35,889 bases of DNA, from the NCBI RefSeq assembly GCF_000826685.1, contig NZ_JROO01000035.1, forward strand, positions 1 through 35,889, in the 5' to 3' direction. Origin of the DNA: Streptomonospora alba (GTDB lineage: Bacteria > Actinomycetota > Actinomycetes > Streptosporangiales > Streptosporangiaceae). The position numbers were made by a program, and so were the translations under genes. The notes beneath the pieces are model-generated. The model ran no database searches, had not been told where the DNA came from, and was given only the letters and a program-made list of their open reading frames with translations. Positions within the stretch are counted from its first letter, which is position 1; each line of letters starts with the position of its first letter. Shown piece after piece: positions 5,453 to 23,693 of this stretch.

Positions 5453-6709
5453 TCACGCGGCGGATTCCGTGTCGCGGGGCATCCGCAGCTGGACCTCCGT
5501 CCCTTCTCCCGGAGCGGTGCGGATGCGGGCACTGCCGCCGTGGCGTTCCATGCGGCCCAGGATGGAGCCGCGCACGCCCATGCGGTCCTCGGGAACGGCG
5601 TCGAGGTCGAAACCGGTGCCGCGGTCGCGGACGAAGACGAGCACCTCCTCGGGATCGACCTCGCCGAAGACCGAGATGGAGTCGCTGCCGGCGTACTTCG
5701 AGGCGTTGACCATGGCCTCGCGTGCCGCCCGCAGCTCGGCGTGGACGCCGTCGTCGATGGGGCAGTCGCCGACGCACACGACCTCGATGGGCACGCCGTG
5801 GGCCTCCTCGACCTCGGCGGCCACCCTCTCCAGACCGGGTTTGACCGTGGTTTCGGCGTCGGCGGGCCGCTGGTAGAGCCAGCTGCGCAGGGCGCGCTCC
5901 TGCACCCGCGCCAGCCGCTGGACCTCGCGGGGGTCCTCGGCCTGACGCTGGATGAGGGTGAGGGTGTGCAGCACGGAGTCGTGGATGTGCGCGGCAAGCT
6001 CGGCGCGCTCCTGGCTGCGGATGCGCTCGCGGCGCTCCCTGTCGCGCTCGCGCACCAGTCCCACGATCCACGGCGCGGCGATCAGGCTGATCCCGGCGAG
6101 GATCGTGGCGGCGAAGGTGAGCCCGGCGCGGGCTTCGTTCAGCTGCTGCTGGAAGGCGAGGAAGCCGATGGCGCCGATGACGACGAGCAGGACGCCAGCG
6201 CCCGAACGTGCCCAGCTCTTACTGCTCTGGCCCAGCACCGAGGTGGACATCCACTCCTCGCGCAGCGCCGGGTTGGCCTGCTGCCAGAGGATGGTGGCGC
6301 CGAGCGCGCCGAAGATGATGAACCACAGCACCGGCTCGAACCAGCCGCCGAAGAGCAGCGCGAGCATGCCCAATCCGCCGGCCAGGGCGCAGTAGGCCAG
6401 CAGCTGGCTGATGTCGCGGCCCTTGCGCTTGGCCGCGTCCTCGGTGGATTCGGTCGAGGCGTCCTCGCCGGTCCCCGCGGTCTCCAGCGTCTCGTCCGTC
6501 TCGTCGTCCACCGGGACGAACAGCGCGAGGACGATGTAGACGGCGATCCCGATCCCACCGAAGCACAGGGCCAGCAACGCAAGCCGGGTCACGACCGCGT
6601 CGATGCCCAGATGCCGGGCCAGCCCTGCGCCCACGCCGGCGACCAGGCGCCCCTCGCGCGGGCGCACCAGCGGCGGCGTCTGGGGCTGTCGGCTCACCGA
6701 TTCGGTCAC
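5453..6709 (-). CDS. PspC-domain sensor histidine kinase (LiaS-like)
   Basis: A 418-aa membrane sensor kinase. Residues about 11-70 form a PspC domain with its hydrophobic helix (VRPREGRLVAGVGAGLARHLG). After an acidic linker (67-90) come further membrane segments near 103-140, 170-187 and 196-218. The dimerisation domain has the HDSVLHTL motif with presumed phosphoacceptor H243. The HATPase has N335 in AMVNASKYAG and the G1 box DRGTGFD. This is the HisKA_3/NarL-type kinase class that pairs with LuxR regulators, matching the gene just downstream. The GTG at 6709 is chosen because the PspC domain begins soon after and GGAAGG/GGAG lie upstream; a second GTG four codons later is possible. It is divergent from the PspC/LiaF-like gene. 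Confidence 0.92.
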   Translation of the reverse strand: MTESVSRQPQTPPLVRPREGRLVAGVGAGLARHLGIDAVVTRLALLALCFGGIGIAVYIVLALFVPVDDETDETLETAGTGEDASTESTEDAAKRKGRDISQLLAYCALAGGLGMLALLFGGWFEPVLWFIIFGALGATILWQQANPALREEWMSTSVLGQSSKSWARSGAGVLLVVIGAIGFLAFQQQLNEARAGLTFAATILAGISLIAAPWIVGLVRERDRERRERIRSQERAELAAHIHDSVLHTLTLIQRQAEDPREVQRLARVQERALRSWLYQRPADAETTVKPGLERVAAEVEEAHGVPIEVVCVGDCPIDDGVHAELRAAREAMVNASKYAGSDSISVFGEVDPEEVLVFVRDRGTGFDLDAVPEDRMGVRGSILGRMERHGGSARIRTAPGEGTEVQLRMPRDTESAA

Positions 6710-6778
6710 CGTCTCCGTGCCTTCCCCTACGACCTGCCACTCCGCGCGCCGCGTACGGGCGCGCGGGCGGGCGGTGCC

Positions 6779-6805
6779 GGGCGTCCCGCTCGCGGCGGGA
6801 CGCCC
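6779..6805. promoter_or_regulatory. Strong hairpin in the divergent kinase/PspC region
   Basis: A perfect 11-bp inverted repeat (GGGCGTCCCGC, loop TCGCG, then its complement) lies in the 279-base intergenic region between the divergent kinase and PspC/LiaF-like genes. It is 70 bases upstream of the kinase start, so it could be a leader hairpin of the kinase mRNA or a protein-binding site controlling both genes. I cannot distinguish these. Confidence 0.5.
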
Positions 6806-6950
6806 CGGCGCGCCCGTGCACCCAGGATGCCCCGGCGACGGGCGGCGGGGCATCAGGGACCCGCCCCGGGACTCCGGGCGGCGCCTCTCAGGGTGGCGTC
6901 AGGGTCGTTCCCGATGGGCTCCGGCGCACGTTACGGGGCAGGATGGAAGC

Positions 6951-6992
6951 ATGCGGCAGATCCGTCGGTCGAGGGTGGAACGAGAGCGTTGA
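6951..6992 (+). CDS. Possible 13-codon leader ORF coupled to the PspC/LiaF-like gene
   Basis: An ATG at 6951 opens a short frame encoding MRQIRRSRVERER, very basic, ending at TGA 6990-6992. That stop overlaps the TTG start of the next gene as TTGA. AGGATGGAAG precedes the ATG. The arrangement suggests translational coupling, where ribosomes finishing the leader restart at the weak TTG. In DNA this GC-rich, short open frames arise often by chance, so this is a candidate only. It would explain use of a TTG start without a close ribosome site of its own. Confidence 0.35.
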   Translation: MRQIRRSRVERER

Positions 6993-8593
6993 ACGAGAAC
7001 GGGCCCGGAGCGGACGACGCCGCGCGCGGTCCCGGCGAGCAGGGGGCCGCGGCGGCGGACGGTGTTGCGCCGGGGGCGCCGCCCGGGTCCTCTCCGCCGC
7101 AGTCCTCCAGCGCCGCCGGCGAGGCGGGGGGCCCGGAGCTGGTCAGGGACAACGAGCGCGGCCTGGTCACCGGCGTGTGCGCCGGGCTCGGCGCCTACAC
7201 CGGCATCGACCCCATCGTGTGGCGGATGAGCTTCGCCGTCACGGGCCTCGCGGGCTTCACCGGTGTGCTGCTGTATGTCGGCGCGTGGATGGCCATGCGC
7301 GACGCCGGGCGCGGCCCGGCGATGTTCGAGCAGCTGCTGAACCGGCGCATCGCCGATCGGGCGGTGCCGGCGCTGCTCGGGCTGGGGCTGGCCGCGGCGG
7401 TGGCGCTGAGCCTGATCGGCGGTGTGGGCTGGGGGACGCTGATGCTGGCGACTCCGCTGATCCTGGGGACCCTGGTGGCCCACAACCGCGGCGTCGACCT
7501 GCGCCGGACCTACCGCGAGCTGCCGGGGCTGCTGAAGTCGGACGAACCGCCGCCGACCACGCCCGAGCCCGGTCCCAAACCCGCCTACTACAACCCCGCA
7601 CAGCCGTGGGCGCAAGCGCCCCCCGGCCCGGTGGACCTGGCTGTGGTGGCCGCCCCCGAGCGCACCGGCGGCGCGGACTCCGCGGCGCGGAGCACGCAGG
7701 ACGCCGGCGAGGCCGGCGGCTCCCGGGAGGCGGAGGGCACGGACGCCCCCGACGGCGCTGGGGCCGGGGACGGCATGGACCGTACGGACGGCGACGGCCC
7801 CGAGGGAGGCGCCACCGCATCGGGGTACTCCGGGCGCAAGCGCATGCGGGATCGGTGCCGGCCGCGCGGGGTACGCCTGCTCGGCATCGTGGGGTGGGCG
7901 GTCGCGGCGGCGGCCGCGATCACGATCGTCGCCACCTCGGCACCGCCGCTGACCGCTCTGTTCGGGCCGAGCACCGGTCCCCTGTTCTTCGGGAGCGTCG
8001 TCGTGATGATCGGGATCGCCGCCGTGGTCGGGACGTGGCTGGGCGACCCGCGCGGGCTGATCGCCGCCGGGACCGTGGCCGTCGTGCTGCTGGTGGCCTC
8101 GGCGGCGGTCGACCTGACGAGCCTGCACCTGGGCTCGAAGGTCTGGCGCCCCACCTCCGTCCCGGCCGCCGAGCGCACCTACGAGCTGGCCGGAGGCCAG
8201 GCGCGGCTCGACCTCACGCGGATGCCGCTGGAGCCGGGGCAGCGGGTGGAGGTCGGCGCCGAGGTGGGCTTCGGCGCGCTGACCGTGCTGGTGCCTCCCG
8301 ACTCCCGCGTGCTCGTGCGCGGCCGCGCGACGTTGGGGGAGATCCGCATCGACGACGCGATGCAGTGGGGAACAGGGCTGGACATGAGCCGCACCCTGGA
8401 GCCGGAGGAGGCCGGGGCGGCCGCGGCCCGCAGCGGCGGGCGCCAGGACGGCGGCCGGGGCGGGGGCCCGGAGCCGGACGGCGGGCGGCAGCGGCCCGCG
8501 GACGGCGACACCGCGGACGGCGACCCGCCCACGCTCGTCGTGAAGCTGGTCTCCCGCATCGGCGACATGGAGGTGCGGCGTGCGGCGTCGTAG
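6989..8593 (+). CDS. PspC-domain protein with LiaF-like C-terminus
   Basis: A membrane protein of about 534 aa. A polar N-terminal tail (1-47) leads to a PspC domain (about 48-106: LVRDNERGLVTGVCAGLGAY...), more membrane helices (about 123-165), a long Gly/Ala/Asp/Pro-rich linker (about 180-280) and a second membrane cluster. The soluble C-terminal half (YELAGGQARLDLTRM..., then GALTVLVPPDSRV) resembles the LiaF/YvqF cell-wall-antibiotic-response domain. LiaF-type proteins restrain a partner kinase, so this is probably the inhibitor or co-sensor for the divergent PspC kinase (inferred). The TTG at 6989 is chosen just before the tail; an in-frame ATG at 6914 is the alternative, adding 25 residues. 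Confidence 0.83.
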   Translation: MNENGPGADDAARGPGEQGAAAADGVAPGAPPGSSPPQSSSAAGEAGGPELVRDNERGLVTGVCAGLGAYTGIDPIVWRMSFAVTGLAGFTGVLLYVGAWMAMRDAGRGPAMFEQLLNRRIADRAVPALLGLGLAAAVALSLIGGVGWGTLMLATPLILGTLVAHNRGVDLRRTYRELPGLLKSDEPPPTTPEPGPKPAYYNPAQPWAQAPPGPVDLAVVAAPERTGGADSAARSTQDAGEAGGSREAEGTDAPDGAGAGDGMDRTDGDGPEGGATASGYSGRKRMRDRCRPRGVRLLGIVGWAVAAAAAITIVATSAPPLTALFGPSTGPLFFGSVVVMIGIAAVVGTWLGDPRGLIAAGTVAVVLLVASAAVDLTSLHLGSKVWRPTSVPAAERTYELAGGQARLDLTRMPLEPGQRVEVGAEVGFGALTVLVPPDSRVLVRGRATLGEIRIDDAMQWGTGLDMSRTLEPEEAGAAAARSGGRQDGGRGGGPEPDGGRQRPADGDTADGDPPTLVVKLVSRIGDMEVRRAAS

Positions 8594-8825
8594 GACGGAC
8601 TGGGGATCGCTCATCGCGGGGATGCTGTTCATCGCGCTGGGGGCGGGCTTCATCGTCGCCGGCCCGTCGCGCTGGGGGCTGGACGCGGTGTGGACGGTGC
8701 CGGTGCTGGCGGTGGGCCTGGGTGTGGCCGGGATCGCCCGAGCGCTGGCGGCCTCGCGCGACCGCCGGAGGCTCCCCGAGGGACCCGACGCCGCGCCCGG
8801 CTCCGGCCCCGGGTCCGACCACTGA
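8580..8825 (+). CDS. Small two-helix membrane protein
   Basis: An 81-aa protein beginning at GTG 8580, inside the last codons of the PspC/LiaF-like gene (14-base overlap), so the two are very likely coupled. It has a basic start (MRRRRTDWG), two hydrophobic segments (about 9-28 and 38-56) and a polar Pro/Gly-rich tail. This resembles the short two-helix modules found beside PspC/LiaF-type proteins. I do not recognise a catalytic motif. Function is unknown, but position suggests a subunit or modulator of the same envelope-stress sensor. Confidence 0.75.
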   Translation: MRRRRTDWGSLIAGMLFIALGAGFIVAGPSRWGLDAVWTVPVLAVGLGVAGIARALAASRDRRRLPEGPDAAPGSGPGSDH

Positions 8826-8956
8826 GCCTTCGGCCGGCGACACGCCGGGGGCGAGGGGGCCCGGAGGGCGGGCCCGGGGCGAGCGGGCGGTCCCGCCTCC
8901 TTTGAACAAGAAGTTGCGATAAGGGGCCTGGATAGCCTCGACCCCGTGTTTTACCG

Positions 8957-9000
8957 TGGTCGGACCTCCCACGACCAGTAGTACTGAGGTGGCCACTACT
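8957..9000. promoter_or_regulatory. Inverted repeats upstream of the molybdenum hydroxylase operon
   Basis: Two overlapping imperfect palindromes lie just before the coxS ribosome site: TGGTCG/CGACCA (8957-8962 and 8972-8977) and AGTAGT/ACTACT (8977-8982 and 8995-9000). The second also contains GTGGCCAC. They fall where an operator or leader structure would control the operon. GAGGAGG at 9002-9008 is the coxS ribosome site. No regulator gene lies next to the operon, so the binding protein is unknown. Confidence 0.35.
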
Positions 9001-9018
9001 TGAGGAGGTCTTGGCCCC

Positions 9019-9591
9019 ATGCCACACATCCGCGTAACCGTCGACGGCGTCAGCTACGACGATCAGGTCGAAGCGCGCCGGCTCCTCGTCCACTACCTAC
9101 GTGAGCAACTGGGCAAGGTCGGCACCCCTGTCGGGTGCGACACCACCAACTGCGGCGCCTGCACGGTCCTGATGGACGGGCAGTCCGTGAAGAGCTGTTC
9201 GGTCCTCGCCTGCCAGGCCGACGGCCATGACATCACCACCGTCGAGGCGCTGGCCGCCGACGGCGACCTGCACCCGATCCAGCGGGCCTTCCACGAGACA
9301 CACGCCCTGCAGTGCGGCTACTGCACGCCGGGGATGATGATGGCGGCACTGGACCTGCTGCGCGACAACCCCGATCCGAGCGACGAAGAGATCCGCGAGG
9401 GTCTCGAAGGCAACATGTGCCGGTGCACCGGCTACGTCAACATCGTGCGTGCGGTGCGCGAGGCCGCCGCCGTAATGCGGGCGACGACCGCGGCGCCCGA
9501 GTCCGAGTCGCGCACCACCGACGTCCCGCAACAGGTGGTCCGCGAGCAGGAACCGGCGCCGCAAGCCGCGAGCGGGGGTGCTTCGTCATGA
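9019..9591 (+). CDS. coxS: Molybdenum hydroxylase small (2Fe-2S) subunit, CoxS-like
   Basis: A 190-aa iron-sulfur subunit of the xanthine oxidase/CO dehydrogenase family, passing electrons from the molybdenum centre to FAD. The plant-type ferredoxin domain carries C40, C45, C48 and C60 (the first three in [10 protein letters not shown]). The all-helical domain carries C99 and C102 (QCGYC) and C134 and C136 (MCRC), so all eight ligands of the two clusters are present. Residues after about 155 form a polar extension beyond the usual end. The ATG at 9019 has GAGGAGG upstream. The stop overlaps the large-subunit start as ATGA, the first gene of an S-L-M operon. The substrate is set by the large subunit and is not known. 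Confidence 0.93.
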
Positions 9592-11987
9592 CCATGGCAC
9601 CGGAGTCGGGCACCGACCAGGTCGGCAGCCCGCGCCTGCGCAAGGAGGACGCCCGGCTGATCACCGGGCAGACCGAGTGGACCGACAACATCCAGCAGAC
9701 GGGCATGCTGCACGTGGCGTTCCTGCGCAGCCCGCACGCCCATGCCCGCATCACGTCCGTGGACACGTCGGCGGCGATGCAGCAGCCCGGGGTGGTGGCG
9801 GCGTACAGCGGGGCCGACTTCGCCGACGAGCAGGGCAGCCTGCCGTGCGCGTGGCCGGTCACCGAGGACATGCTGCTGCCCGCCCACCCGCCGATGGCCG
9901 TGGACGAGGTCCGCTACGTCGGCGAGGCCGTGGCGTGCGTGGTGGCGCGCGACGCTTACTCGGCCGCCGACGCGCTGGAGGCGCTCGACGTCGAGTTCGA
10001 GCCGCTGCCCGCCGTGATCGACATGGAATCGGCGCTGGCCGAGGACACCCCGCTGGTCCATGAGGGCTCGGGCCAGGGCCAGGGGAGCAACAAGGCCTTC
10101 GAGTGGCCGATGGCCGTGGGCGACGTCGACTCCGCGTTCGAGGGCGCCGACATCGTCCTGACCCGCCGCTACCACCAGCAGCGGCTGATCCCCGCGGCGA
10201 TGGAGCCCCGGTCGGTGGTGTGCCGTCCCGACGGCGACGCCTTCACGCTGTGGTCGGCCACCCAGGTGCCGCACATCGTGCGGCTGATGCTGGCCATGAC
10301 CACCGGCATCCCCGAGCACAAGATCCGCGTCATCGCCCCGGATGTGGGCGGCGGGTTCGGGTCGAAGCTGCAGGTGACCGCGGAGGAGGTGCTGGCGCTG
10401 CTGCTGGCGCGGCGGCTGCGCAAGCCCGTGAAGTGGACCGAAACCCGTACCGAGGGCTTCCAGACCACCCACCACGGGCGCGACCAGATCCAGGACGTGT
10501 CGATCGCCGCCGATTCCGACGGCCGCATCCGCGGGCTCAAGGTGGACCTGCTGGCCGACATGGGCGCCTACATGATGCTGGTGACGCCGGGCGTGCCGAT
10601 CCTGGGCGCGTTCATGTTCCCCGGCATCTACAAGATGGACGCCTACTCGTTCCACTGCACCGGGGTGTTCACCACCAAGATGCCCACCGACGCCTACCGG
10701 GGCGCGGGCCGCCCCGAGGCGACCTACGCGATCGAGCGGATCGTCACCGAGCTCGCCGACGAGATCGGGATGGACCCGATGGAGCTGCGGCGGCGCAACT
10801 GGATCACGCACGACGAGTTCCCGTACACCGGCATCGCCGGGTTGACCTACGACTCCGGCAACTACGAGGCGGCCACCGACCGGGCGGTGGAGCTGTTCGA
10901 CTACGACGGGCTGCGCGCCGAGCAGCGCCGGCGCCGCGAGAGCGGCGACCCGGTACAGCTGGGCATCGGCATCTCGACCTACACGGAGATGTGCGGGCTG
11001 GCGCCCTCACGCGTCCTGGGGCAGCTGTCCTACGGCGCCGGCGGCTGGGAGAACGCCGCGGTGCGGATGCTGCCCACGGGCAAGGTCGAGGTCGTCACGG
11101 GCACGTCGCCGCACGGGCAGGGCCACGTCACGTCCTGGAGCCAGATCGTCGCCGACCAGCTCGGGGTGCCCTTCGAGGACGTGGAGGTACTGCACGGCGA
11201 CACCCGTGTCGCGCCCAAGGGCATGGACACCTACGGGTCGCGCTCGCTTGTGGTGGGCGGAACCGCGGTGGTCCAGGCCTGTGACCGGGTGCTGGACAAG
11301 GCGCGCCGGCTGGCGGCGCACATGATGGAGGCCAACGAGGACGACCTGGAGTTCTCCGACGGGCGCTTCACCGTGCGCGGCACCGAGCGGCCCTCCACGA
11401 GCCTGCAGGAGGTCGCGCTCGCGGCGTTCGCTGCGCACGACCTGCCCGAGGGCGCGGAGGCGTCGCTGGACGCCGACGCCACGTTCGATCCGGAGAACTT
11501 CTCGTATCCGCACGGCACCCACCTGTGCGCGGTCGAGGTCGACACCGAGACCGGCCAGGTGTCCCTGCGCTCCTATACGGCGGTCGACGACGTGGGCACG
11601 GTGATCAACCCGTCGATCGTGGACGGGCAGGTGCATGGCGGACTTGCGCAGGGCATCGCGCAGGCCCTGTTCGAGGAGGCCGTGTACGACACCGACGGCA
11701 ACCTGGTGACGTCGACGATGGCCGATTACACGGTGCCGACGGCGGCCGACCTGCCGGACTTCACGCTCGACCGCACCACCACCCCGGCGACCACCAATCC
11801 GCTGGGGGCCAAGGGGGTCGGCGAGGCCGGCACGATCGCCTCCACTCCTGCGGTGGTGGGCGCGGTCGTCGACGCGCTTCGGCCCTTCGGTGTGCGGGAC
11901 ATGCGGATGCCGTGCACACCCCAGCGGGTGTGGCGGGCCGTCGCCGAAGCGCGCGAGGCCGGCCGGAGCGAGGGAGGACAGCGATGA
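9588..11987 (+). CDS. coxL: Molybdenum hydroxylase large subunit, form II CoxL-like
   Basis: A 799-aa molybdopterin-cytosine-dinucleotide subunit of the xanthine oxidase family and its catalytic component. Visible motifs are PDVGGGFGSK (251-260), the active-site loop AYRGAGR (369-375), the cofactor-binding PHGQGH (508-513) and the C-terminal GAKGVGEAG, whose Glu (about 746) is the usual catalytic base. Form I, true aerobic CO dehydrogenases, have AYXCSFR with the Cu-binding Cys in this loop. Here the Cys is absent and the sequence is the form II signature, so CO oxidation should not be assumed; the real substrate is open. The gene overlaps coxS and coxM by ATGA at both ends, so expression is tightly coupled. 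Maturation genes (XdhC/CoxD/MobA types) are not in this window. Confidence 0.93.
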   Translation: MTMAPESGTDQVGSPRLRKEDARLITGQTEWTDNIQQTGMLHVAFLRSPHAHARITSVDTSAAMQQPGVVAAYSGADFADEQGSLPCAWPVTEDMLLPAHPPMAVDEVRYVGEAVACVVARDAYSAADALEALDVEFEPLPAVIDMESALAEDTPLVHEGSGQGQGSNKAFEWPMAVGDVDSAFEGADIVLTRRYHQQRLIPAAMEPRSVVCRPDGDAFTLWSATQVPHIVRLMLAMTTGIPEHKIRVIAPDVGGGFGSKLQVTAEEVLALLLARRLRKPVKWTETRTEGFQTTHHGRDQIQDVSIAADSDGRIRGLKVDLLADMGAYMMLVTPGVPILGAFMFPGIYKMDAYSFHCTGVFTTKMPTDAYRGAGRPEATYAIERIVTELADEIGMDPMELRRRNWITHDEFPYTGIAGLTYDSGNYEAATDRAVELFDYDGLRAEQRRRRESGDPVQLGIGISTYTEMCGLAPSRVLGQLSYGAGGWENAAVRMLPTGKVEVVTGTSPHGQGHVTSWSQIVADQLGVPFEDVEVLHGDTRVAPKGMDTYGSRSLVVGGTAVVQACDRVLDKARRLAAHMMEANEDDLEFSDGRFTVRGTERPSTSLQEVALAAFAAHDLPEGAEASLDADATFDPENFSYPHGTHLCAVEVDTETGQVSLRSYTAVDDVGTVINPSIVDGQVHGGLAQGIAQALFEEAVYDTDGNLVTSTMADYTVPTAADLPDFTLDRTTTPATTNPLGAKGVGEAGTIASTPAVVGAVVDALRPFGVRDMRMPCTPQRVWRAVAEAREAGRSEGGQR

Positions 11988-12835
11988 TCCCGGCACAGTT
12001 CGACTATGTGCGCCCCGGCGACGTCGCCGAGGCGGTGCGGGTGCTCGCCGAAAGCGAGGAGCCCAAGGTGATGGCGGGCGGGCAGAGCCTGACGCCGCTG
12101 CTGCGGTTCCGGTTGGCCTATCCCGACGTGGTGGTCGACCTCGGCGGGCTCACGGAGCTCCGGGGCGTCGCCGACGAGGGCGAGTGGCTCCGGATCGGTG
12201 CCATGACCACGCACGACGAGGTCATACACGACCCGCTGGTGGCGGCGCACTGCCCGCTGCTGGCGCAGGCCACGCACACGGTCGCCGATCCGGCGGTACG
12301 CCACCGCGGCACGCTCGGCGGGTCGCTGGCCCACGCCGACCCGGCGGGCGATCTGCCCGCCGTCGCGCTGGCGCTGGACGCGGAGTTCCTGGTCAGCGGC
12401 GAGGACGGGGACCGCGCGGTTCCCGCGTCGGAGTTCTTCCAGGACTATCTGACGACGGTGCTGGACATCGGCGACGTGCTGACGGCGGTGCGCTTCCCGA
12501 AGCTGACCGGCTGGTCCTTCCACTACAAGAAGTTCTCCCAGACCGCTCAGGCCTGGGCGATCGTGGGCGTCGCGGCGGCGGTCCGGCGCGACGACGGAAG
12601 CGTCGCCGAGGCGCGCGTGGGCCTGACCAACATGGGCAGCACGCCGATCCGCGCCCGTCAGGTCGAGGAGGCCTGCCGGGGCGTCCCGGCGCGGACCGAT
12701 GCGCTGCGGGAGGCCGCCCAGTCGGCCGACGCGGGCACCGATCCGCCCAACGACCTCAGTGCGCAGGCCGACTACCGGCGGCACTTGGCCCGCGTTTTGA
12801 CCGGCAGGGCGCTGGCCGCGGCGGCGGGGCTCTGA
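11984..12835 (+). CDS. coxM: Molybdenum hydroxylase FAD subunit, CoxM-like
   Basis: A 283-aa FAD-binding subunit that receives electrons from the iron-sulfur subunit and passes them to an acceptor. The FAD motifs AGGQSL (31-36) and TLGGSLAHADPAGD (110-123) are intact, followed by the C-terminal CO-dehydrogenase flavoprotein domain. Length is normal for the family. The ATG at 11984 follows AGGGAGGA and overlaps the coxL stop as ATGA. The order small-large-medium matches form II clusters; form I operons usually run M-S-L. The operon appears to end here, at two consecutive hairpins. Confidence 0.93.
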   Translation: MIPAQFDYVRPGDVAEAVRVLAESEEPKVMAGGQSLTPLLRFRLAYPDVVVDLGGLTELRGVADEGEWLRIGAMTTHDEVIHDPLVAAHCPLLAQATHTVADPAVRHRGTLGGSLAHADPAGDLPAVALALDAEFLVSGEDGDRAVPASEFFQDYLTTVLDIGDVLTAVRFPKLTGWSFHYKKFSQTAQAWAIVGVAAAVRRDDGSVAEARVGLTNMGSTPIRARQVEEACRGVPARTDALREAAQSADAGTDPPNDLSAQADYRRHLARVLTGRALAAAAGL

Positions 12836-12840
12836 CGCAG

Positions 12841-12861
12841 GGTCGGGCGGGCGGCCCGACC
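12841..12861 (+). terminator. Hairpin just after coxM
   Basis: A 7-bp perfect inverted repeat GGTCGGG/CCCGACC with a 7-base loop begins five bases after the coxM stop. It has no T-run and is followed closely by a stronger hairpin, so the two may act together to end the coxSLM transcript. Confidence 0.45.
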
Positions 12862-12871
12862 GATGGCTGAG

Positions 12872-12901
12872 GCGGGTCGGCTGCGGATGCGGCCGACCCG
12901 C
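12872..12901 (+). terminator. Terminator of the coxSLM operon
   Basis: A 13-bp stem with one G-U pair and a four-base loop (GGAT): GCGGGTCGGCTGC pairs with the strand ending in GCCGACCCGC. It is followed by TCTT. Its position between coxM and coxG suggests that coxG, although functionally linked, has its own promoter or receives only read-through. Confidence 0.65.
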
Positions 12902-12980
12902 TCTTCGCTGGTAACGGCGGGTGGACGCCCGCCTGCTGGGTAGTAACGGATTGGGTTCGAGGCGCCCGCACACGGGGCAG

Positions 12981-13001
12981 ATGGAGGACCGGAGCCGATG
13001 A
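12981..13001 (+). CDS. Possible 6-codon leader ORF (first of a chain)
   Basis: ATG at 12981 encodes MEDRSR and stops at TGA 12999-13001, overlapping the next mini-ORF start as ATGA. A weak GGGG lies just upstream. It is very short and could be chance. It is reported because it forms a chain with the next mini-ORF and coxG. Confidence 0.22.
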   Translation: MEDRSR

Positions 13002-13036
13002 CGCCGAACGCGGCAGGAAGGCGGCGCTGCGAATGA
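12998..13036 (+). CDS. Possible 12-codon leader ORF coupled to coxG
   Basis: ATG at 12998 has good ribosome-site material upstream (GGAGG at 12983-12987 and GGAG at 12991-12994). It encodes MTPNAAGRRRCE, and its TGA overlaps the coxG ATG as ATGA. The coxG start itself has only a distant AGGAAGG. Ribosome delivery through this mini-ORF is therefore plausible. The peptide is basic and resembles no attenuator peptide I know, and it may have no role as a product. Confidence 0.4.
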   Translation: MTPNAAGRRRCE

Positions 13037-13887
13037 GTACGCGGTTGAACAACCGGTTCACGGTTCCGGTGCCTGTGGACCAGGCCTGGGACGTGCTGAT
13101 GGACGTCGAGCGGGTCGCGCCCTGCATGCCGGGGGCGACGCTCGAATCGGCGGAGGGCGACTCGTTCACGGGCAAGGTCCGGGTGAAGGTCGGCCCGATC
13201 ACCGTGACGTACCGGGGCGAGGCGCATTTCACCGAGGTCAACGCCGACGAGCGCAGGGTCGAACTGCACGCGGGCGGCAAGGAGGCCCGCGGGTCCGGCA
13301 CCGCGTCGGCCACGGTGACAGCCCGCCTGCGCGAGCAGGACGACTCCACGACGGAGGTGACCGTCGACACCGACTTCACCGTCACCGGCCGCGTCGCCCA
13401 GTTCGGGCGCGGCGTGATGGCCGACGTCAGTGCCAAACTGGTGGACCGGTTCGCCGAGAACCTCGCCGCGGAGCTGCAAGGGCGCGAACACGAGCAGGTG
13501 GGAGCGGGCGGCGGGGCCGCCGCGGCCCGCGGCGGCGACGGCTCCGGCGCTTCGGCGGGCTCCTCCGCCGCATCGTCGGGCGGCACCGCCGATGCGGGCA
13601 CGTCCGCCAACGGGGTCGTGCCCCCGCAGGCCGGCGAGCCCCGGCAGGCGGGCGAGCGCGGCGGCGAGCAGAGCGGGGCGCCGTCCGGCTCCCGCGGGGG
13701 TTCGCGGCCGAGCGGGAACGCCCGTGAAGACGCCCCGGGGCTGCGGCCCCGCGACGACAGCATCGACCTGATGTCGACGGTCGGCCTGCCCGTCCTCAAG
13801 CGCATCCTGCCGGCGGTCGGGGCCGTGGCGCTGCTCGCGATCGTCTTCTCCTGGCTGCGCAGGCGCAGGAGGGCACGCAGGGCGTAG
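13033..13887 (+). CDS. coxG: CoxG-like SRPBCC protein with C-terminal membrane anchor
   Basis: A 284-aa protein. Residues 1-150 form a CoxG/SRPBCC domain (NRFTVPVPVDQAWDVL... CMPGATL ... GEAHF). A 90-residue Gly/Ser/Ala-rich low-complexity linker (about 155-245) leads to one transmembrane helix (about 256-275) and a very basic cytoplasmic tail (RRRRRARRA). In CO-dehydrogenase systems CoxG tethers the enzyme to the membrane and links it to the quinone pool. The same role is likely here for the adjacent S-L-M enzyme, but inferred. The long linker would let the domain reach a cytoplasmic partner. The gene is 197 bases after coxM, beyond two hairpins, so it may be transcribed separately. The ATG at 13033 overlaps the stop of a 12-codon ORF. 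Confidence 0.88.
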   Translation: MSTRLNNRFTVPVPVDQAWDVLMDVERVAPCMPGATLESAEGDSFTGKVRVKVGPITVTYRGEAHFTEVNADERRVELHAGGKEARGSGTASATVTARLREQDDSTTEVTVDTDFTVTGRVAQFGRGVMADVSAKLVDRFAENLAAELQGREHEQVGAGGGAAAARGGDGSGASAGSSAASSGGTADAGTSANGVVPPQAGEPRQAGERGGEQSGAPSGSRGGSRPSGNAREDAPGLRPRDDSIDLMSTVGLPVLKRILPAVGAVALLAIVFSWLRRRRRARRA

Positions 13888-13888
13888 T

Positions 13889-13921
13889 CCCCCGTCTGGG
13901 AGCCCTCCGGCAACGCGGGGG
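13889..13921 (+). terminator. Weak hairpin after coxG
   Basis: A CCCCCG/CGGGGG pair (6 bp, 21-base loop) begins two bases after the coxG stop. There is no T-run. It is a possible terminator, weakly supported. Confidence 0.3.
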
Positions 13922-14256
13922 CGGGACACGAGCGGGGCTGCGGCGAGGGGCGGTGGGCGCGTAGCGCGTGTGCCTGCGTGCCGCCCAGCGCTCGCCGCGC
14001 CTTCGACAGCCCACCACCACCCGCCTCAGACACGTCGACGACCTTTCCTTCGCCGACGAGCAGGGGTGCGCCGTGCAGGCACGGCGGTCCCCCACGTTCG
14101 GCGGCAGGCCGGCTCGCGGCGCTGCTCACACGCGTGCCCCATCGCGGCGACCTCCGGGGCGGGCACCACGGACGGTTGCGGAGAGGGCCTGTCCTCGCTG
14201 CGGCGGCGCAGTCCGGCAGGCGGTGCGGAGCGTCCTCCGGAGCGGCGGTGCCGTGA

Positions 14257-17762: not shown

Positions 17763-18635
17763 CTATGCGCTCCGGCGTTGTTCGGCGCCGTCGGGGTCGG
17801 TGTGGCCCAGGGTCGGGCCCGGACGGTCGCGGCGGGCGATGCGCCCGCCGCGGTCCACGGGGACCACCAGCGGGGTGCCGGTCTCCGGGTCGGGGATGAC
17901 GCGCACCGGCATGCAGAAGACCTCCTCCACCAGCTCCTCGGTGATGATGTCGGAAGGGCTGCCCTCGGCGACGACCTGGCCGTCCTTCATCGCGATGAGG
18001 TGGGTGGCGTAGCGGCACGCGTGGTTGAGGTCGTGCAGGACCGCGACGAGGGTGTAGGAGCGTTCCTGGTGCAACTCGGCGCACAGGTCCAGGACGTCCA
18101 TCTGGTGGGCGATGTCCAGGTAGGTCGTGGGCTCGTCGAGGAGCAGCAGCGGAGTCTGCTGGGCCAGCACCATGGCCAGCCAGACGCGCTGGCGCTGCCC
18201 GCCCGACAGTTCGTCGACCATGCGCCCGGCGAGGTCGACGATCCCGGTGGCGTCCATGGCCTCGGTGATGACCTGCTCGTCGGTCCGCGACCACTGCTTG
18301 AGGAACTTCTGGTGCGGGTAGCGCCCGCGCGCCACCAGGTCGGCGACGGTGATGCCGTCGGGCGCGATCGAGGACTGCGGCAGCAGGCCCAGGCGGCGCG
18401 CGACCTCCTTGGAGGGGTAGGAGCCGATCATGCGCCCGTCGAGGTGCACGGCGCCGTGGCTGGGTTTGAGCATCCGCGAGAGGGCGCGCAGCAGGGTCGA
18501 CTTGCCGCACGCGTTGGGCCCGACGATCACCGTGAAGGAGTTGTCCGGGATGGTGATGCCGAGGTCGCGGGAGACCACGCTGTGGTCGTAGGCCAGGGTC
18601 AGGTTCTCTCCCCACAGCCGGGCCGATTCGGGCAT
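17763..18635 (-). CDS. Ferric-siderophore ABC transporter ATPase (FepC/FecE-like)
   Basis: A 290-aa nucleotide-binding subunit of an iron-chelate importer. It has Walker A GPNACGKST (39-47), Q-loop Q87, signature LSGGQRQR (143-150), Walker B LLLLDEP with Glu168, D-loop and H-loop His201 (HDLNHA). The sequence is typical of the FepC/FecE/FhuC branch. The ATG at 18635 is chosen because AGGAGAGA sits correctly upstream; an in-frame ATG at 18674 lacks a ribosome site and would overlap the permease. It is the last gene of a three-gene operon. Iron control is expected from the iron box upstream of the first gene. The chelate is not known. Confidence 0.92.
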   Translation of the reverse strand: MPESARLWGENLTLAYDHSVVSRDLGITIPDNSFTVIVGPNACGKSTLLRALSRMLKPSHGAVHLDGRMIGSYPSKEVARRLGLLPQSSIAPDGITVADLVARGRYPHQKFLKQWSRTDEQVITEAMDATGIVDLAGRMVDELSGGQRQRVWLAMVLAQQTPLLLLDEPTTYLDIAHQMDVLDLCAELHQERSYTLVAVLHDLNHACRYATHLIAMKDGQVVAEGSPSDIITEELVEEVFCMPVRVIPDPETGTPLVVPVDRGGRIARRDRPGPTLGHTDPDGAEQRRSA

Positions 18636-18666
18636 CGTCTCTCCTAGGTGCGTCGCGTGGCCGGGA

Positions 18667-19791
18667 TCAGGCATGTCCGGTGCGCCATTCCCGATAGAGC
18701 ACCCACACCAGGTAGGTGCCGCCGATGACCGCGGTGACCACGCCCACCGGAAGCTGCGTCGGGGCCAGCGCGTGCTGGGCCGCCAGGTCGGCGGCCGCCA
18801 GCAGCAGCGCCCCCATGAGAGCCGCGCCGAACAGCGCGGTGCCCTGGGTGCGTGCGAGGCGGCGGACGAGCTGGGGCGCCGCCAGGGCGATGAAGGCGAT
18901 GGGGCCGGATACGGCGATGGCCGCTCCGGTCAGCGCGCTGGCGGCGAGCATCGCTGTGATCTGGGTGCGCTGGACGGGCACGCCCAGGGCGAGCGCCGCC
19001 TGCTCACCCATCTCCATCATGCGCAGCCGCGGCCCCAGGGCGAGGACCAGGGGCATGAGCACGGCCGCGGCGATCGACACCGCGATCACCTCGCCCCAGC
19101 CGCGCCCGTTGAGGCTGCCGATCATCCAGATGTGGGCGGTCAGGGCTTCGGTGAGCTCGGCGCGGGTGATGAGGTAGTCGCGCACCGCCATCAGCAGCGC
19201 GTTGATGCCGATCCCGACGAGGACGAGCCGGTAGCCCTGCACACCCTGCTTGAACGCCAGCAGGTAGACCAGCACCGCGGTGGCGATACCGCCCGCCATG
19301 GCGCCGAGCGAGACCTGCAGCATGCTGCCGCCGAACACCAGGATGGTGGCGACGGCCCCGGTGGAGGCGCCGCCCGTGAACCCGATGATGTCGGGGCTGC
19401 CCAGAGGGTTGCGCGAGATGCTCTGGAACACGCCGCCGGCGATCCCCAGCGCGGCTCCCACCAGGACCGCCACCCAGGCGCGCGGGAGGCGCACGTCGCG
19501 GACGAAGAACAGGTCCAGGCGCTCGCCCTGGCCCGCCAGTGCCCACAGCACGCGGGGCAGCGGGATGGAGTACTCGCCCACCGCCAGCGACACGGCGAAG
19601 ACGACCGCGGTCGCTGCGATCAGTCCGCCGTAGACGGCGGCCACGCGCGGGCGTACGGCGAAGCTGATGCGGCCGCCCGCCAGGCTCAGCGTGCGTGTCG
19701 CGTGACCGGGGCGCCGGCCGACGGGCGCGTCGGCGCCGCCTGAGGTCGAGGTACCGGAGCCCGTACCGGTACGTGCGGGGGTGAGAGTCAA
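18667..19791 (-). CDS. Ferric-siderophore ABC permease (FecCD family), second subunit
   Basis: A 374-aa FecCD-type permease with about ten membrane helices. Diagnostic stretches are LPRAWVAVLVGAALGIAGGVFQ, then RNPLGSPDIIGFTGGAS near the N-terminal third and AGPIAFIAL-type (SGPIAFIALAAPQLVR) near the C-terminus. It has a polar N-terminal tail of about 50 residues before the first helix. The start is TTG at 19791, whose last bases form the stop of the upstream permease (TTGA overlap); AAGGA lies about ten bases before. The two permeases should form a heterodimer. Translation is probably coupled to the upstream gene. Confidence 0.91.
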   Translation of the reverse strand: MTLTPARTGTGSGTSTSGGADAPVGRRPGHATRTLSLAGGRISFAVRPRVAAVYGGLIAATAVVFAVSLAVGEYSIPLPRVLWALAGQGERLDLFFVRDVRLPRAWVAVLVGAALGIAGGVFQSISRNPLGSPDIIGFTGGASTGAVATILVFGGSMLQVSLGAMAGGIATAVLVYLLAFKQGVQGYRLVLVGIGINALLMAVRDYLITRAELTEALTAHIWMIGSLNGRGWGEVIAVSIAAAVLMPLVLALGPRLRMMEMGEQAALALGVPVQRTQITAMLAASALTGAAIAVSGPIAFIALAAPQLVRRLARTQGTALFGAALMGALLLAAADLAAQHALAPTQLPVGVVTAVIGGTYLVWVLYREWRTGHA

Positions 19792-20894
19792 AGCTGGGCC
19801 ATCCTTCTCCGCCGCACGAGGTAGATGAACACAGGTGCGCCGATCAGGGCGGTGACGATGCCGACCTCCAGCTCGCCGCCGGAGGTGATGACCCGGCCCG
19901 CCGTATCGGCCAGGGTCAGCAGCACCGCTCCGATCGCGGCCGCGTAAGGCAGCAGCCATCGCTGGTCGGGGCCGGTGAAGGTACGGGCCAGGTGGGGCAC
20001 GATCAGGCCGACGAACCAGATCGGCCCGGCCGCCGCCGTGGCTCCCCCGCACAGCAGCACGATCGCCAGGGCCACCAGTGCGCGGGTGCGGTTGACGCGG
20101 GCGCCGAGCGCGGCGGCGAGGTCCTCGCCGAGCGCGACGGCGTTCAGCGCGGGCCCCAGCGTCAGCGCGAGCAGGATGCCGGCGATCAGAAACGGCCAGA
20201 TGCGCACGAAGATCTCGATGTCGCGGCCGACGAGGGAGCCCACCTGCCAGAAGCGGATCTGGTCGAAGACGAACTCGTTGAGGACGGTGATCCCGTAGAC
20301 GAAGCCCTGCAGGACCGCGGCGATCGCGGTGCCGGCGAGGGCGAGGCGCACCGGGGTGGCGCCGCTTCGCCCCCGCGAACCCAGCGCGTAGACGAGCACC
20401 GCGGCGATCGCGGCGCCGACGAAGGCGAACCAGACGTAGGCGTCGACGCCGGTCATGCCGAACACGAAGATCGCGGTGACGACCGCGGCGGCGGCGCCAG
20501 AGTTGACGCCGAGGATCCCGGGTTCGGCGATGGGGTTGCGGGTGAGGGCCTGCATGAGGGCGCCGGCCAGCCCGAGCGCGGCGCCGACGAAGATGCCGAG
20601 CACGGTGCGCGGCAGGCGCAGCTCCCACACGACGCTGGCGTTGTAGCTTCCGTCCGGGTTGAACAGCGCGTCGACGACGGTGCCCAGCGGGATGGCCTTG
20701 GCGCCGACGGCGATGCTGACCAGCACGCACACCGCCAGTCCCACGAGCAGGGCCGAAAGGCCGACGGTGCGCAGCAGGTGGATGCGCGCTGTGGCGTCGG
20801 TGCGGCGGTCGAGCTCCGTCGCGGCCGCGACGGAGTCGGGGGCCTCGCCGTCCTCGCCGAACACGGGGCCGGCGGACGGCCGTTCCAGGCTCAT
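19788..20894 (-). CDS. Ferric-siderophore ABC permease (FecCD family), first subunit
   Basis: A 368-aa FecCD-type permease and the first gene of the iron-uptake operon. Family hallmarks are LRLPRTVLGIFVGAALGLAGALMQ, RNPIAEPGILGVNSGA and GPIWFVGLIVPHLAR. The N-terminal 40 residues are polar and cytoplasmic. The ATG at 20894 has GGAG five bases upstream. The frame stays open further upstream, but across the promoter and iron box, so that extension is not real. No periplasmic-binding-protein-type lipoprotein gene is present in the operon or the window, which is unusual; it must be elsewhere or shared. Confidence 0.91.
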   Translation of the reverse strand: MSLERPSAGPVFGEDGEAPDSVAAATELDRRTDATARIHLLRTVGLSALLVGLAVCVLVSIAVGAKAIPLGTVVDALFNPDGSYNASVVWELRLPRTVLGIFVGAALGLAGALMQALTRNPIAEPGILGVNSGAAAAVVTAIFVFGMTGVDAYVWFAFVGAAIAAVLVYALGSRGRSGATPVRLALAGTAIAAVLQGFVYGITVLNEFVFDQIRFWQVGSLVGRDIEIFVRIWPFLIAGILLALTLGPALNAVALGEDLAAALGARVNRTRALVALAIVLLCGGATAAAGPIWFVGLIVPHLARTFTGPDQRWLLPYAAAIGAVLLTLADTAGRVITSGGELEVGIVTALIGAPVFIYLVRRRRMAQL

Positions 20895-20979
20895 CGCGCT
20901 CCGCCGGGGGCGGCGGCCGTGCGGCGCGCGGGCAGGGGCAGCACTGTTCCTCCGGGGGCGACTTCTGTTCCTCTCGAAC

Positions 20980-20998
20980 TTAGTAGAGGCTAACCTAT
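20980..20998 (-). promoter_or_regulatory. DtxR/IdeR-type iron box
   Basis: Read on the minus strand the site is ATAGGTTAGCCTCTACTAA, which matches 15 of 19 positions of the DtxR/IdeR consensus TTAGGTTAGCCTAACCTAA. The left half-site is nearly perfect and the right half diverges at three adjacent positions. It lies 86 bases upstream of the first permease start, in the right place to cover a promoter. In these families Fe(II)-loaded repressor binds and shuts off siderophore uptake when iron is plentiful. Confidence 0.82.
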
Positions 20999-21133
20999 CC
21001 CCCGTTCCGGCGGAAGTGGGGCCGGAAAGTGACCGCCGTCTCCCTGCGGTGCACGTGCGCACGGCAGCGGGGCCGCTACGGTCCGCTCACCGCCGCCTCC
21101 CGATCGATCCGGTGCCGAGGGTCCCGCCCGCCA

Positions 21134-23452
21134 CTACCGGGTGGTCACCCGCGGCGGGTCGAAGACCCGCACCGGCGGCGGGTCGCCCTCGTAGCGCTCG
21201 ACCTCCACGAGCACGTGCTGGCCCGTGGTGCCCTGGCTCAGTGCCGAGGAGCCGGTGTCGGCGGTGAGCACGTTGGGGTTGCCGTGCACGCAGGTGGCCT
21301 CGGGCGAAGAGGGGTCGTACCAGGCTCCGGTGGACAACTGGACGACGTCGGGCCGCACGTCGGTGCTGGTCTCCACGCCCGCCAGCAGGCTGCCGCGGTC
21401 GTTGTGCACCCGCACCACGTCGCCGTCGGCGACGCCGCGCGCCCGCGCGTCCTCAGGGTGCATGCGCATCCGCGCCCGGTCGGCGATCTCCAGCGAGCGG
21501 CTGTAGGCGCCCATGTCGTGCTGGCTGTGCAGCCTTCCGCGCGGCTGGTTGGCGACCAGCAGCAGCGGCCACCGGCGCGACCGCTCGGCGCCCAGCCGCT
21601 CGGACGCGGTCAGCCATGCGGGGTGACCGGGGCAGTCGTCGTAGCCGAAGGAGTCGATCGTGTGCGAGTACAGCTCGATGCGGCCGCTCGGCGTGCCCAG
21701 CGGATGGGCGCCGGGGTCGGCTCGGAAGTCGCCGAAGAGGGTGGTGTCCTCGACGCGGTCGGGGATGTCCACGCCGCCGGCCGCCCAGAAGTCGTCGAAG
21801 CCGGGCAGCGGCGTCGTGTACCGGGCGCGCCACTGCTCGTAGATGCGCCGCAGCCACTGCGCGGAGGTGCGGCCCTCGGTGAACTCCGCGCGGACCCCCA
21901 GCCGCTCGGCCAGGTCGGCGTAGACGTCGTACTCGTCGCGGGCGCCGCCGTGCGGGGGCACCGCACGCGGCATGGCGCGCACCCGCAGATCGCCTTGGCT
22001 GGCACCGATGTCGTCGCGTTCCAGCGAGGTGGTGGAGGGAAGCACGATGTCGGCGTGGCGGGCGGTGGCGGTCCAGTGGGTCTCGGCGACGACCACGGTC
22101 TCGGGCCGACCGAAGGCGCGGGTGAGCCGCGCGAGGTCCTGGTGGTGGTGGAAGGGGTTGCCGCCGGACCACACCACCATGCGGATGTCGGGGTAGGTGC
22201 AGCGCCGCCCGTTGTAGTCGTAGGACTCGCCGGGGTGCAGCAGCATGTCCGCGATGCGGGCGACGGGGATGGCCGAGTCGACCGGGTTGGCGCCCTGCAG
22301 GAAGCGCGGCAGTCCCGAGGGGGTGGATCCGCCGGCGTAGTTTCCCGTGGAGCCGTAGCCGGTGGCGAACCCGCCGCCGGGCAGCCCGATCTGGCCCAGG
22401 CAGGCGGCCAGGGCGACGCCGCCCCACAGCGGCTGCTCGCCGAACCGGGTGCGCTGCACCGACCAGCCGACGTTGACGAGCGTGCGGCCGCCGGCCATAC
22501 GCCGCGCGAGGCCGCGCAGAGTGTCGGCGGACAGGCCGCACAGGCCCTCGGCCCATTCGGGGGTCTTGGCGACGCCGTCGCGGATGCCGGCGACGTAGTC
22601 GCGCAGCACGTCGGCGCCGACGGTGCAGCGGTCGAGGAAGGCGCGGTCGGCCAGGCCCTCCTCGAACAGGGTGTGGATGAGGGCGAGTTGGACGGCGGTG
22701 TCGCTGCCGGGGTCGGCGGGCAGCCACTGCGCGCCCATCTCCTCGATGGTGTCGTCGCGCAGCGGGCTGACGGAGACGGTGCGGACGCCGTTGCGGGCGG
22801 CGGCGCGCATGCCCTGGGCGGCGGTCTGGCGGGCCCGACCGCCCGAGGCGTTCCAGGTGTTGGACAGCCGCAGGCCGCCGAAGCTCACCACCAGGTCGGT
22901 GTGCTCGGCTACCGCCTCCCAGGTGGGGGCGCGCTCAAGCAGGTCGGCGGTGCCGCCCAGGCCCACGACGTGGGGCAGCAGCACTTCGACGCAGGCGTGG
23001 CTGTAGGTGTTGCGGGAGCGGGTGTAGCCGCCGATGGTGTTGAGGAAGCGGTGCACCTGGCTCTGGGAGTGGTGGAACCGCCCGGCGCTGCCCCAGCCGT
23101 AGGAGCCGCCGTAGATGGCCGCGTTGCCGTGTTCGCGGCGCACCCGGTCGAACTCGGCGGCCAGCAGGTCGAGCAGGACGCCCCAGTCGAGCCGGACGTA
23201 CTCGTCGCCGGGCGAGCCGCGCCGGCTGTCGGCGCCGGGGCCGTTCTCCAGCCAGCGGCGCCGTACGGCGGGCGCGTCCACCCGGGTGGCGTGGTGCTGG
23301 GCCGCGGGGACGTTGGCGCTGATGGGCGAGGGGTCGGTCTCGTCGGGTCCCGGGAGCACGTCCACGACGCGGTCTCCCGAGACGAGGACGTCGTAGGCGC
23401 CCCAGTGCGAGCTGGTGAAATGGCTTGTCGTGTGCTCGTCCTGACGGTCCAT
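21134..23452 (-). CDS. Molybdopterin oxidoreductase, DMSO/biotin-sulfoxide reductase family
   Basis: A 772-aa bis-molybdopterin-guanine-dinucleotide enzyme of the BisC/TorA/DorA type. The N-terminal SSHWGAY, the YGGSYGWGSAGRFHH segment (about 114-128) and NTYSHACVEVLLPHVVG (from about 148), with Ser151 as the probable molybdenum ligand, are family marks. The N-terminal Fe4S4 cysteine motif of other family members is absent, as expected for this branch. The C-terminal cofactor-binding domain includes LLLVANQPRGRLHSQHD. There is no twin-arginine signal, so it is cytoplasmic and more like biotin- or methionine-sulfoxide reductase than periplasmic TorA/DorA. The substrate is not determinable. The ATG at 23452 follows GGAGAAAGG. 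It is divergent from the CitE-like gene, with no electron-transfer or chaperone partner adjacent. Confidence 0.9.
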   Translation of the reverse strand: MDRQDEHTTSHFTSSHWGAYDVLVSGDRVVDVLPGPDETDPSPISANVPAAQHHATRVDAPAVRRRWLENGPGADSRRGSPGDEYVRLDWGVLLDLLAAEFDRVRREHGNAAIYGGSYGWGSAGRFHHSQSQVHRFLNTIGGYTRSRNTYSHACVEVLLPHVVGLGGTADLLERAPTWEAVAEHTDLVVSFGGLRLSNTWNASGGRARQTAAQGMRAAARNGVRTVSVSPLRDDTIEEMGAQWLPADPGSDTAVQLALIHTLFEEGLADRAFLDRCTVGADVLRDYVAGIRDGVAKTPEWAEGLCGLSADTLRGLARRMAGGRTLVNVGWSVQRTRFGEQPLWGGVALAACLGQIGLPGGGFATGYGSTGNYAGGSTPSGLPRFLQGANPVDSAIPVARIADMLLHPGESYDYNGRRCTYPDIRMVVWSGGNPFHHHQDLARLTRAFGRPETVVVAETHWTATARHADIVLPSTTSLERDDIGASQGDLRVRAMPRAVPPHGGARDEYDVYADLAERLGVRAEFTEGRTSAQWLRRIYEQWRARYTTPLPGFDDFWAAGGVDIPDRVEDTTLFGDFRADPGAHPLGTPSGRIELYSHTIDSFGYDDCPGHPAWLTASERLGAERSRRWPLLLVANQPRGRLHSQHDMGAYSRSLEIADRARMRMHPEDARARGVADGDVVRVHNDRGSLLAGVETSTDVRPDVVQLSTGAWYDPSSPEATCVHGNPNVLTADTGSSALSQGTTGQHVLVEVERYEGDPPPVRVFDPPRVTTR

Positions 23453-23693
23453 CGCGCCTTTCTCCCCGCGGGGCGCCCCTCGGCGCGTGTCCGCCGCCGT
23501 GCGCGGCCCCCGTTCTCACTGGTGTCTGAGTCGCACTCTATGTTCTGTCCGGAGGGGCGGGCCGATTGCGGGGCTGCGGCATGCCTCACGACGGAACCGC
23601 AGGCAGGGACGCACTCGGCGGCGCACGTTTGCGAGGATGTCCGGCGGCGGACGGCGGGTGCCGCCCGGCCCGGTGGAGGCGAAGGAGGGCTAC

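Follow-up and report, generated by a model that had tools for sequence, protein, structure and literature searches.

A form II molybdenum hydroxylase without the copper-ligand cysteine and its adjacent CoxG in Streptomonospora alba: a tentative case for aldehyde oxidation

Introduction

The DNA considered here is a 35,889-nucleotide stretch of Streptomonospora alba (positions 1-35889 of one contig, C41, of a 5.9 Mb draft genome that is 97.5% complete; hereafter the window), in which a unit of four genes on the + strand, in the order S-L-M-CoxG, encodes the small, large and medium subunits of an enzyme of the xanthine oxidase family together with CoxG (Table 1). Judged by its sequence, the enzyme is not a form I CO dehydrogenase (CODH), and phylogeny, topology test, family score, active-site motif and gene order all bear out what a preliminary description of the window had claimed on this point. 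We tentatively favour the interpretation that it is a molybdenum hydroxylase free of copper, that it acts on some small compound which is not aromatic, with an aldehyde as the likeliest candidate, and that its electrons might reach menaquinone via CoxG. The matter is of some consequence, since form II genes can be counted among those of CO oxidisers when surveys go by homology (PMC13203968).

Results and Discussion

The large subunit and form I

The genes overlap by ATGA at the S/L and at the L/M junctions, and Pfam recognises all three subunits above its cut-offs: S by Fer2_2 (115.2 bits, cut-off 30.3) and Fer2 (27.6, cut-off 21), L by MoCoBD_1 and MoCoBD_2, and M by FAD_binding_5 (169.4 bits). 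In a maximum-likelihood tree of 54 L rows, from which Kyrpidia CoxL is absent, the window's L lies inside an actinobacterial clade of 30 rows (support 100/99), and the five form I rows stand separately (100/100). This is the phylogeny that the preliminary description had proposed as a check on itself, and it places L outside form I; the approximately unbiased (AU) test rejects a topology with the window pair inside form I (p-AU 1.5e-56). Joining the window clade to form I to the exclusion of glyceraldehyde oxidoreductase (GAOR) gives a p-AU of 0.02, a grouping that was picked after the tree had been seen.

The form I model TIGR02416 scores 691.2 bits on L, below its cut-off of 991, whilst matches over that cut-off in genomes of the window's family score 1,029-1,420. 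No TIGR02416 match at E <= 1e-250 is found in the source draft genome, which holds four MoCoBD_1 genes, the window's L included, and AYXCSFR was not seen in the stretches read of the three that lie outside the window. Where form I has the AYXCSFR loop with its Cu-ligand Cys, and extra residues on both sides of it in the alignment, L has AYRGAGR at residues 369-375; residues 368-378 are invariant across 18 aligned sequences, and two clade rows outside that alignment deviate, one with AVRGAGR (L019) and one with SEAA after the loop (L091). The gene order differs as well, being S-L-M in the window and M-S-L in the form I loci L123-L126, but M-S-L order alone is a weak marker of form I because two loci that are not form I (L007 and L128) also have it. 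Loop and order are both those of form II, just as they had been read in the preliminary description.

A true, if slow, CO dehydrogenase that does without the Cu-ligand Cys has to be weighed at this point. A coxG-bearing cluster of S-L-M order and AYRGAGR loop is all that two Kyrpidia strains have for growth on CO (PMC7248562), and form I CODHs are the nearest solved chains to L overall. Set against this are the absent Cys, the shorter loop, the position of L outside form I in both tree and AU test and the shortfall in TIGR02416 score (691 vs 991), and we regard a CO dehydrogenase in the window as improbable.

Table 1. Features of the S-L-M-CoxG unit, in window coordinates
Feature	Coordinates	Strand	Basis
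Small subunit S, two [2Fe-2S] domains (CoxS/GAOR gamma-like), 190 amino acids	9019-9591	+	Pfam, NCBIfam
Large molybdopterin subunit L (form II CoxL/GAOR alpha-like), 799 amino acids	9588-11987	+	Pfam, NCBIfam, tree
Active-site loop AYRGAGR, L residues 369-375, without Cu-ligand Cys	10692-10712	+	Position, alignment
Medium FAD subunit M, 283 amino acids	11984-12835	+	Pfam, NCBIfam
CoxG, 284 amino acids	13033-13887	+	Pfam COXG, structure match
SRPBCC domain of CoxG, residues 1-158	13033-13506	+	AlphaFold2 model
Disordered linker of CoxG, residues 159-245	13507-13767	+	pLDDT, composition
Predicted CoxG juxtamembrane IDL motif, C-terminal helix and basic end, residues 241-284	13753-13884	+	Model, motif, hydrophobicity

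Relation to GAOR and the active-site pocket

For S, L and M alike the best NCBIfam model is a GAOR subunit, each scoring below its cut-off (glyceraldDH_alpha 728.8 on L, cut-off 790; glyceraldDH_beta 286.5 on M, cut-off 350; glyceraldDH_gamma 246.7 on S, cut-off 290). In the L tree the sister of the window clade is the Sulfolobus GAOR 4zoh together with a second Rubrobacter L (99/96), on a long branch, which makes GAOR the nearest characterised relative of L by tree position.

When L is aligned with GAOR2, whose pocket residues are taken from PMC4726530, residues A373, R375, G550 and E746 of L match, whilst the polar residues Y190, D292, D293, N297 and S330 of GAOR2 correspond to I230, a gap, a gap, V336 and A369. 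These nonpolar replacements are nearly constant across the clade rows, and the polar substrate pocket of GAOR is not found in L. The Tyr/Phe clamp of an aromatic-aldehyde enzyme is likewise absent, its positions being occupied by Ala373 and Leu261 in the window clade; PMC4726530 ties Phe425/Tyr535 of D. gigas AOR to aromatic aldehydes. The pocket of L, as read from the alignment, is nonpolar and has no aromatic clamp.

CoxG and its tail

The product of the fourth gene scores 73.9 bits with Pfam COXG (cut-off 22.2), is identical to M. smegmatis CoxG (8uds) in 72 of 150 aligned columns (48%), and has in this same structure the best PDB match of its AlphaFold2 model (TMt 0.94, rmsd 1.3), which is that of an SRPBCC fold. 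Confidence in the model is high over residues 1-150 (pLDDT 90-97), with a helix extending to 158, and low in the linker (pLDDT of 41-53 in the blocks that cover residues 161-250), where 95% of the residues are G, S, A, P, Q, E, N, T, D or R. A C-terminal helix is modelled at 253-283 (block means 61, 92, 94, 80), the basic end reads RRRRRARRA, and the hydrophobic peak of the tail, 2.14 over 19 residues, is equalled by none of 20,000 shuffles of the tail. The linker, single helix and basic end described previously are therefore all present in sequence and model, with the correction that the linker has 87 residues and not 90.

A hydrophobic tail stretch occurs in 24 of 27 CoxGs of window-type operons, a count that omits one shortened CoxG (L046). 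In all 24 a short [DE]L motif precedes the helix (for L011, where the script had picked an earlier stretch, the motif was read from the sequence itself), and in three of them (L045, L061 and L083) the basic end is absent. The title of 8uds states that a lipid-anchoring C-terminus was left out of the M. smegmatis structure, and CoxGs 74-85% identical to the 8uds fragment (L129-L134) carry a tail of identical design. A tail-anchored CoxG is thus ordinary, because M. smegmatis-like CoxGs share the design, and the idea of the anchor as a peculiarity of the window's CoxG was rejected; by sequence and model, this protein has a predicted C-terminal membrane helix of the same kind as theirs.

Three Promicromonosporaceae CoxGs stop at or just past the SRPBCC domain, with no linker, motif or helix (L023:10283-10744, L026:4768-5250 and L075:10259-10729), and offer a natural test of the anchor.

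Conservation of the enzyme with its CoxG

Judged by L, Streptomonospora sp. PA3 is the closest named relative (91% identity), and the S-L-M-CoxG order is found again in relatives. Among 75 loci retrieved by L, several of them on short contigs, CoxG is present in 21 of the 27 with at least 60% identity and in 5, one partial, of the 48 with 50-58%. A search of 150 genomes of the window's family with L at E <= 1e-200 gave 112 rows in 108 matching genomes; three rows of 45-46% identity, all over the TIGR02416 cut-off, were dropped to leave 109, and one genome (G043) had been matched solely by such a form I row, which brings the genomes with a window-type L to 107. Form I over the TIGR02416 cut-off is present in 51 of the 150, and CoxG at E <= 1e-20 in 131. 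At least 89 of the 109 L copies have a same-strand CoxG no more than 3.5 kb downstream (median 1,035 bases), this being a lower bound into which part of the CoxG matches listed entered. By comparison, 573 of 864 marine genomes have been reported to carry coxG no more than 15 genes away from form I coxL (PMC13240472).

In a tree of 53 CoxG rows, where the form I label of L129-L134 stands for similarity to 8uds and not for adjacency, 29 of the 33 window-type CoxGs fall together in a clade (98/94) that excludes both the M. smegmatis-like CoxGs (99/99) and those of another form II enzyme (97/95). The other four window-type CoxGs, of Acidimicrobiales type, have a weakly supported position outside this clade, next to a form I CoxG (94/62). 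The grouping in this tree is by partner enzyme, and CoxG therefore mostly follows its enzyme.

Three L genes of the same clade have no adjacent S or M in the stretch searched (L091:9995-12361, L019:7001-9400 and L037:7001-9352). The first of them, from Rubrobacter, adjoins genes for 5-oxoprolinase (PxpA), a carboxyltransferase and biotin carboxylase, with another S and L some 7.5 kb further on.

CoxG beside other enzymes

CoxG is not CO-specific, because on an Arthrobacter nicotine plasmid (L200) a tailed CoxG, 48% identical to the window's, shares its gene run with 6-hydroxypseudooxynicotine dehydrogenase. MoxR, VWA and CoxF-like genes (CoxD/E/F-like) belong to this run, on one and the same strand, and the L gene 2.5 kb away encodes a protein 99.9% identical over 717 residues to that dehydrogenase (7dqx). 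In a nicotine proteome, the table of plasmid proteins with differential regulation includes COXG and COXD of pAO1 (PMC6214936). A run M-S-L-CoxG-XdhC (L199:5278-10797) lies on a plasmid of Rhodococcus pyridinivorans from a quinoline-degrading reactor, and CoxG-like proteins are described both as the proposed anchor of 3-hydroxypyridine dehydrogenase and as that of the Sulfolobus glycerol-3-phosphate dehydrogenase (PMC11962113). The source genome itself has a second xanthine oxidase family operon, on contig C32 (M-S-L-CoxG, PYRGAGR loop; L007:6866-11332), the CoxG of which is tailed and distant from that of the window. The retention of CoxG by an enzyme without the Cu-ligand Cys, which the preliminary description had remarked on, has precedents both here on the nicotine plasmid and in Kyrpidia, where a form II S-L-M set with coxG and AYRGAGR is already published (PMC7248562).

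The nicotine, quinoline and hydroxypyridine cases lend themselves to another view of the window, namely that the path of the electrons is the same and that the substrate is an N-heterocycle or some other aromatic compound. However, 7dqx and 1t3q are placed in another group of the L tree (93/95, drawn open), the Tyr/Phe clamp is replaced by Ala373 and Leu261, and the operon is widespread in its family, with no catabolic cluster seen around it. Taken together, we consider an aromatic substrate unlikely.

A proposed mechanism

The interpretation that we prefer is aldehyde oxidation by an enzyme of the form II, GAOR-related actinobacterial clade, presumably free of copper. At molybdenum in L, with E746 as a candidate base, a small compound without an aromatic ring would be hydroxylated, the likeliest candidate being an aldehyde of lower polarity than glyceraldehyde. 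Two electrons would then move from molybdenum via both [2Fe-2S] clusters of S to flavin adenine dinucleotide (FAD) in M. The C-terminal helix and the flexible linker may hold the SRPBCC domain of CoxG at the membrane, where it could carry menaquinone to the FAD and menaquinol back to the membrane. Menaquinone binding by the window's CoxG is suggested by analogy with its M. smegmatis homologue; PMC13240472, with reference to Kropp et al. 2025, describes CoxG as a protein that binds menaquinone.

Several observations weigh against this proposal. Form I CODH outscores GAOR for L in overall sequence and fold, the structure ranking of L does not favour GAOR (the absence of 4zoh from the 50 VIA-align rows listed for L excludes nothing), and quinone reduction in Sulfolobus did not need CoxG (PMC11962113).

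The last of these bears on whether CoxG could be a membrane tether and nothing else, with no part in electron transfer, the FAD meeting the quinone directly. The Sulfolobus glycerol-3-phosphate dehydrogenase is reported to reduce quinone without CoxG, which moves it to the membrane (PMC11962113), and coxG mutants of O. carboxidovorans still use CO, at a generation time of 149 h vs 21 h (PMC4240915). On the other hand, the report of menaquinone binding by M. smegmatis CoxG speaks for more than tethering, as do the three relatives that retain the SRPBCC domain without linker or helix; a tether-only CoxG seems to us rather unlikely. The dedicated membrane tether of the preliminary description thus holds in part: the adjacency of CoxG to the enzyme is conserved and its grouping follows the enzyme, but its anchor is an ordinary one and its reported quinone binding goes beyond tethering.

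Less probable is the wider picture, in which a widespread and mostly single-copy actinobacterial molybdenum hydroxylase of aldehyde type would respire a metabolic aldehyde, menaquinone being shuttled by a dedicated CoxG that was inherited together with the enzyme. If aldehyde respiration is correct, it would provide this form II clade with an actual function and hint at what accepts the electrons of GAOR-type enzymes, the physiological acceptor of GAOR being called unknown in PMC4726530. The clade, tied to CoxG and devoid of the copper site, is found in 107 of 150 family genomes vs 51 for form I, and to know its substrate, a question testable with one operon, would tell what many actinobacteria may respire and help to correct the counts of CO oxidisers.

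Surroundings and accessory genes

Genes like CoxD, CoxE and XdhC lie together elsewhere in the source genome, with a nucleotidyltransferase-like gene alongside (contig C26, L088:5297-9383), and no match to the window's L was found in a 16 kb stretch of that contig. Among the 75 relative loci, CoxD and/or CoxE occur near L in 33 (13 of the 27 with at least 60% identity, 20 of the 48 below), and XdhC is present in 141 of the 150 family genomes vs the 107 with a window-type L, and also in genomes without it. A coxDEF set dedicated to the window's enzyme is unsupported, the genes being on contig C26 and XdhC occurring independently of window-type L.

Besides S, L, M, CoxG and a PspC/kinase block upstream, nothing clearly recurrent was seen in 19 loci (18 of the family and the window), compared through crude clusters of open reading frames, antisense ones included. 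In the window this block (5453-8590), directly upstream of the operon, is a pair of genes that face each other, one for a sensor kinase with a PspC domain and one for another PspC protein; a kinase-containing cluster is upstream in 15 of the 19 loci, the window included, which may be plain synteny. A scan of 8600-14200 gave 0 promoters and 0 terminators. Further along, the stretch 17763-24647 holds a second molybdopterin enzyme, which belongs to a different superfamily (PF00384, 21134-23452, minus strand). Close to it are genes for a FecCD transporter, for an ABC ATPase and for an HpcH/HpaI aldolase.

Comparison with known systems

The preliminary interpretation is partly supported, and the kind of arrangement it described was already known; what this work adds is the frequency of the enzyme in the window's family, its adjacency to CoxG, the grouping of CoxG by partner and the nonpolar, clamp-free pocket. 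A literature search found no paper that treats GAOR and CoxG together.

The form II cluster of Kyrpidia spormannii resembles the window's in gene order, loop and coxG, and differs in that its host grows on CO (PMC7248562). GAOR2 of Sulfolobus tokodaii (4zoh; PMC4726530) is likewise a hetero-trimer of L, M and S with a YRGAGRPE loop, and is close to the window's enzyme by tree and by best NCBIfam model; yet the window's subunits stay below the family cut-offs, their pocket is nonpolar where that of GAOR2 is polar, and L of GAOR2 comes from a locus (STK23390) apart from its M and S. The M. smegmatis form I CODH (8uem) has the highest overall sequence score for L (42% in the Foldseek alignment) and a CoxG (8uds) 48% identical to the window's, but it has the AYXCSFR Cys and the M-S-L order that the window lacks. 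The 6-hydroxypseudooxynicotine (ketone) dehydrogenase (7dqx) is a molybdenum hydroxylase without the Cu-ligand Cys, encoded in a run with a homologous tailed CoxG; its L, however, is 36% identical, sits elsewhere in the tree, has the loop AYRAPGR and belongs to a catabolic plasmid. Finally, in Sulfolobus acidocaldarius a CoxG-like protein brings a dehydrogenase that does not act on CO, the glycerol-3-phosphate dehydrogenase, to the membrane, as CoxG might in the window, although its partner there is a GlpA-like flavoprotein and not a molybdenum enzyme (PMC11962113).

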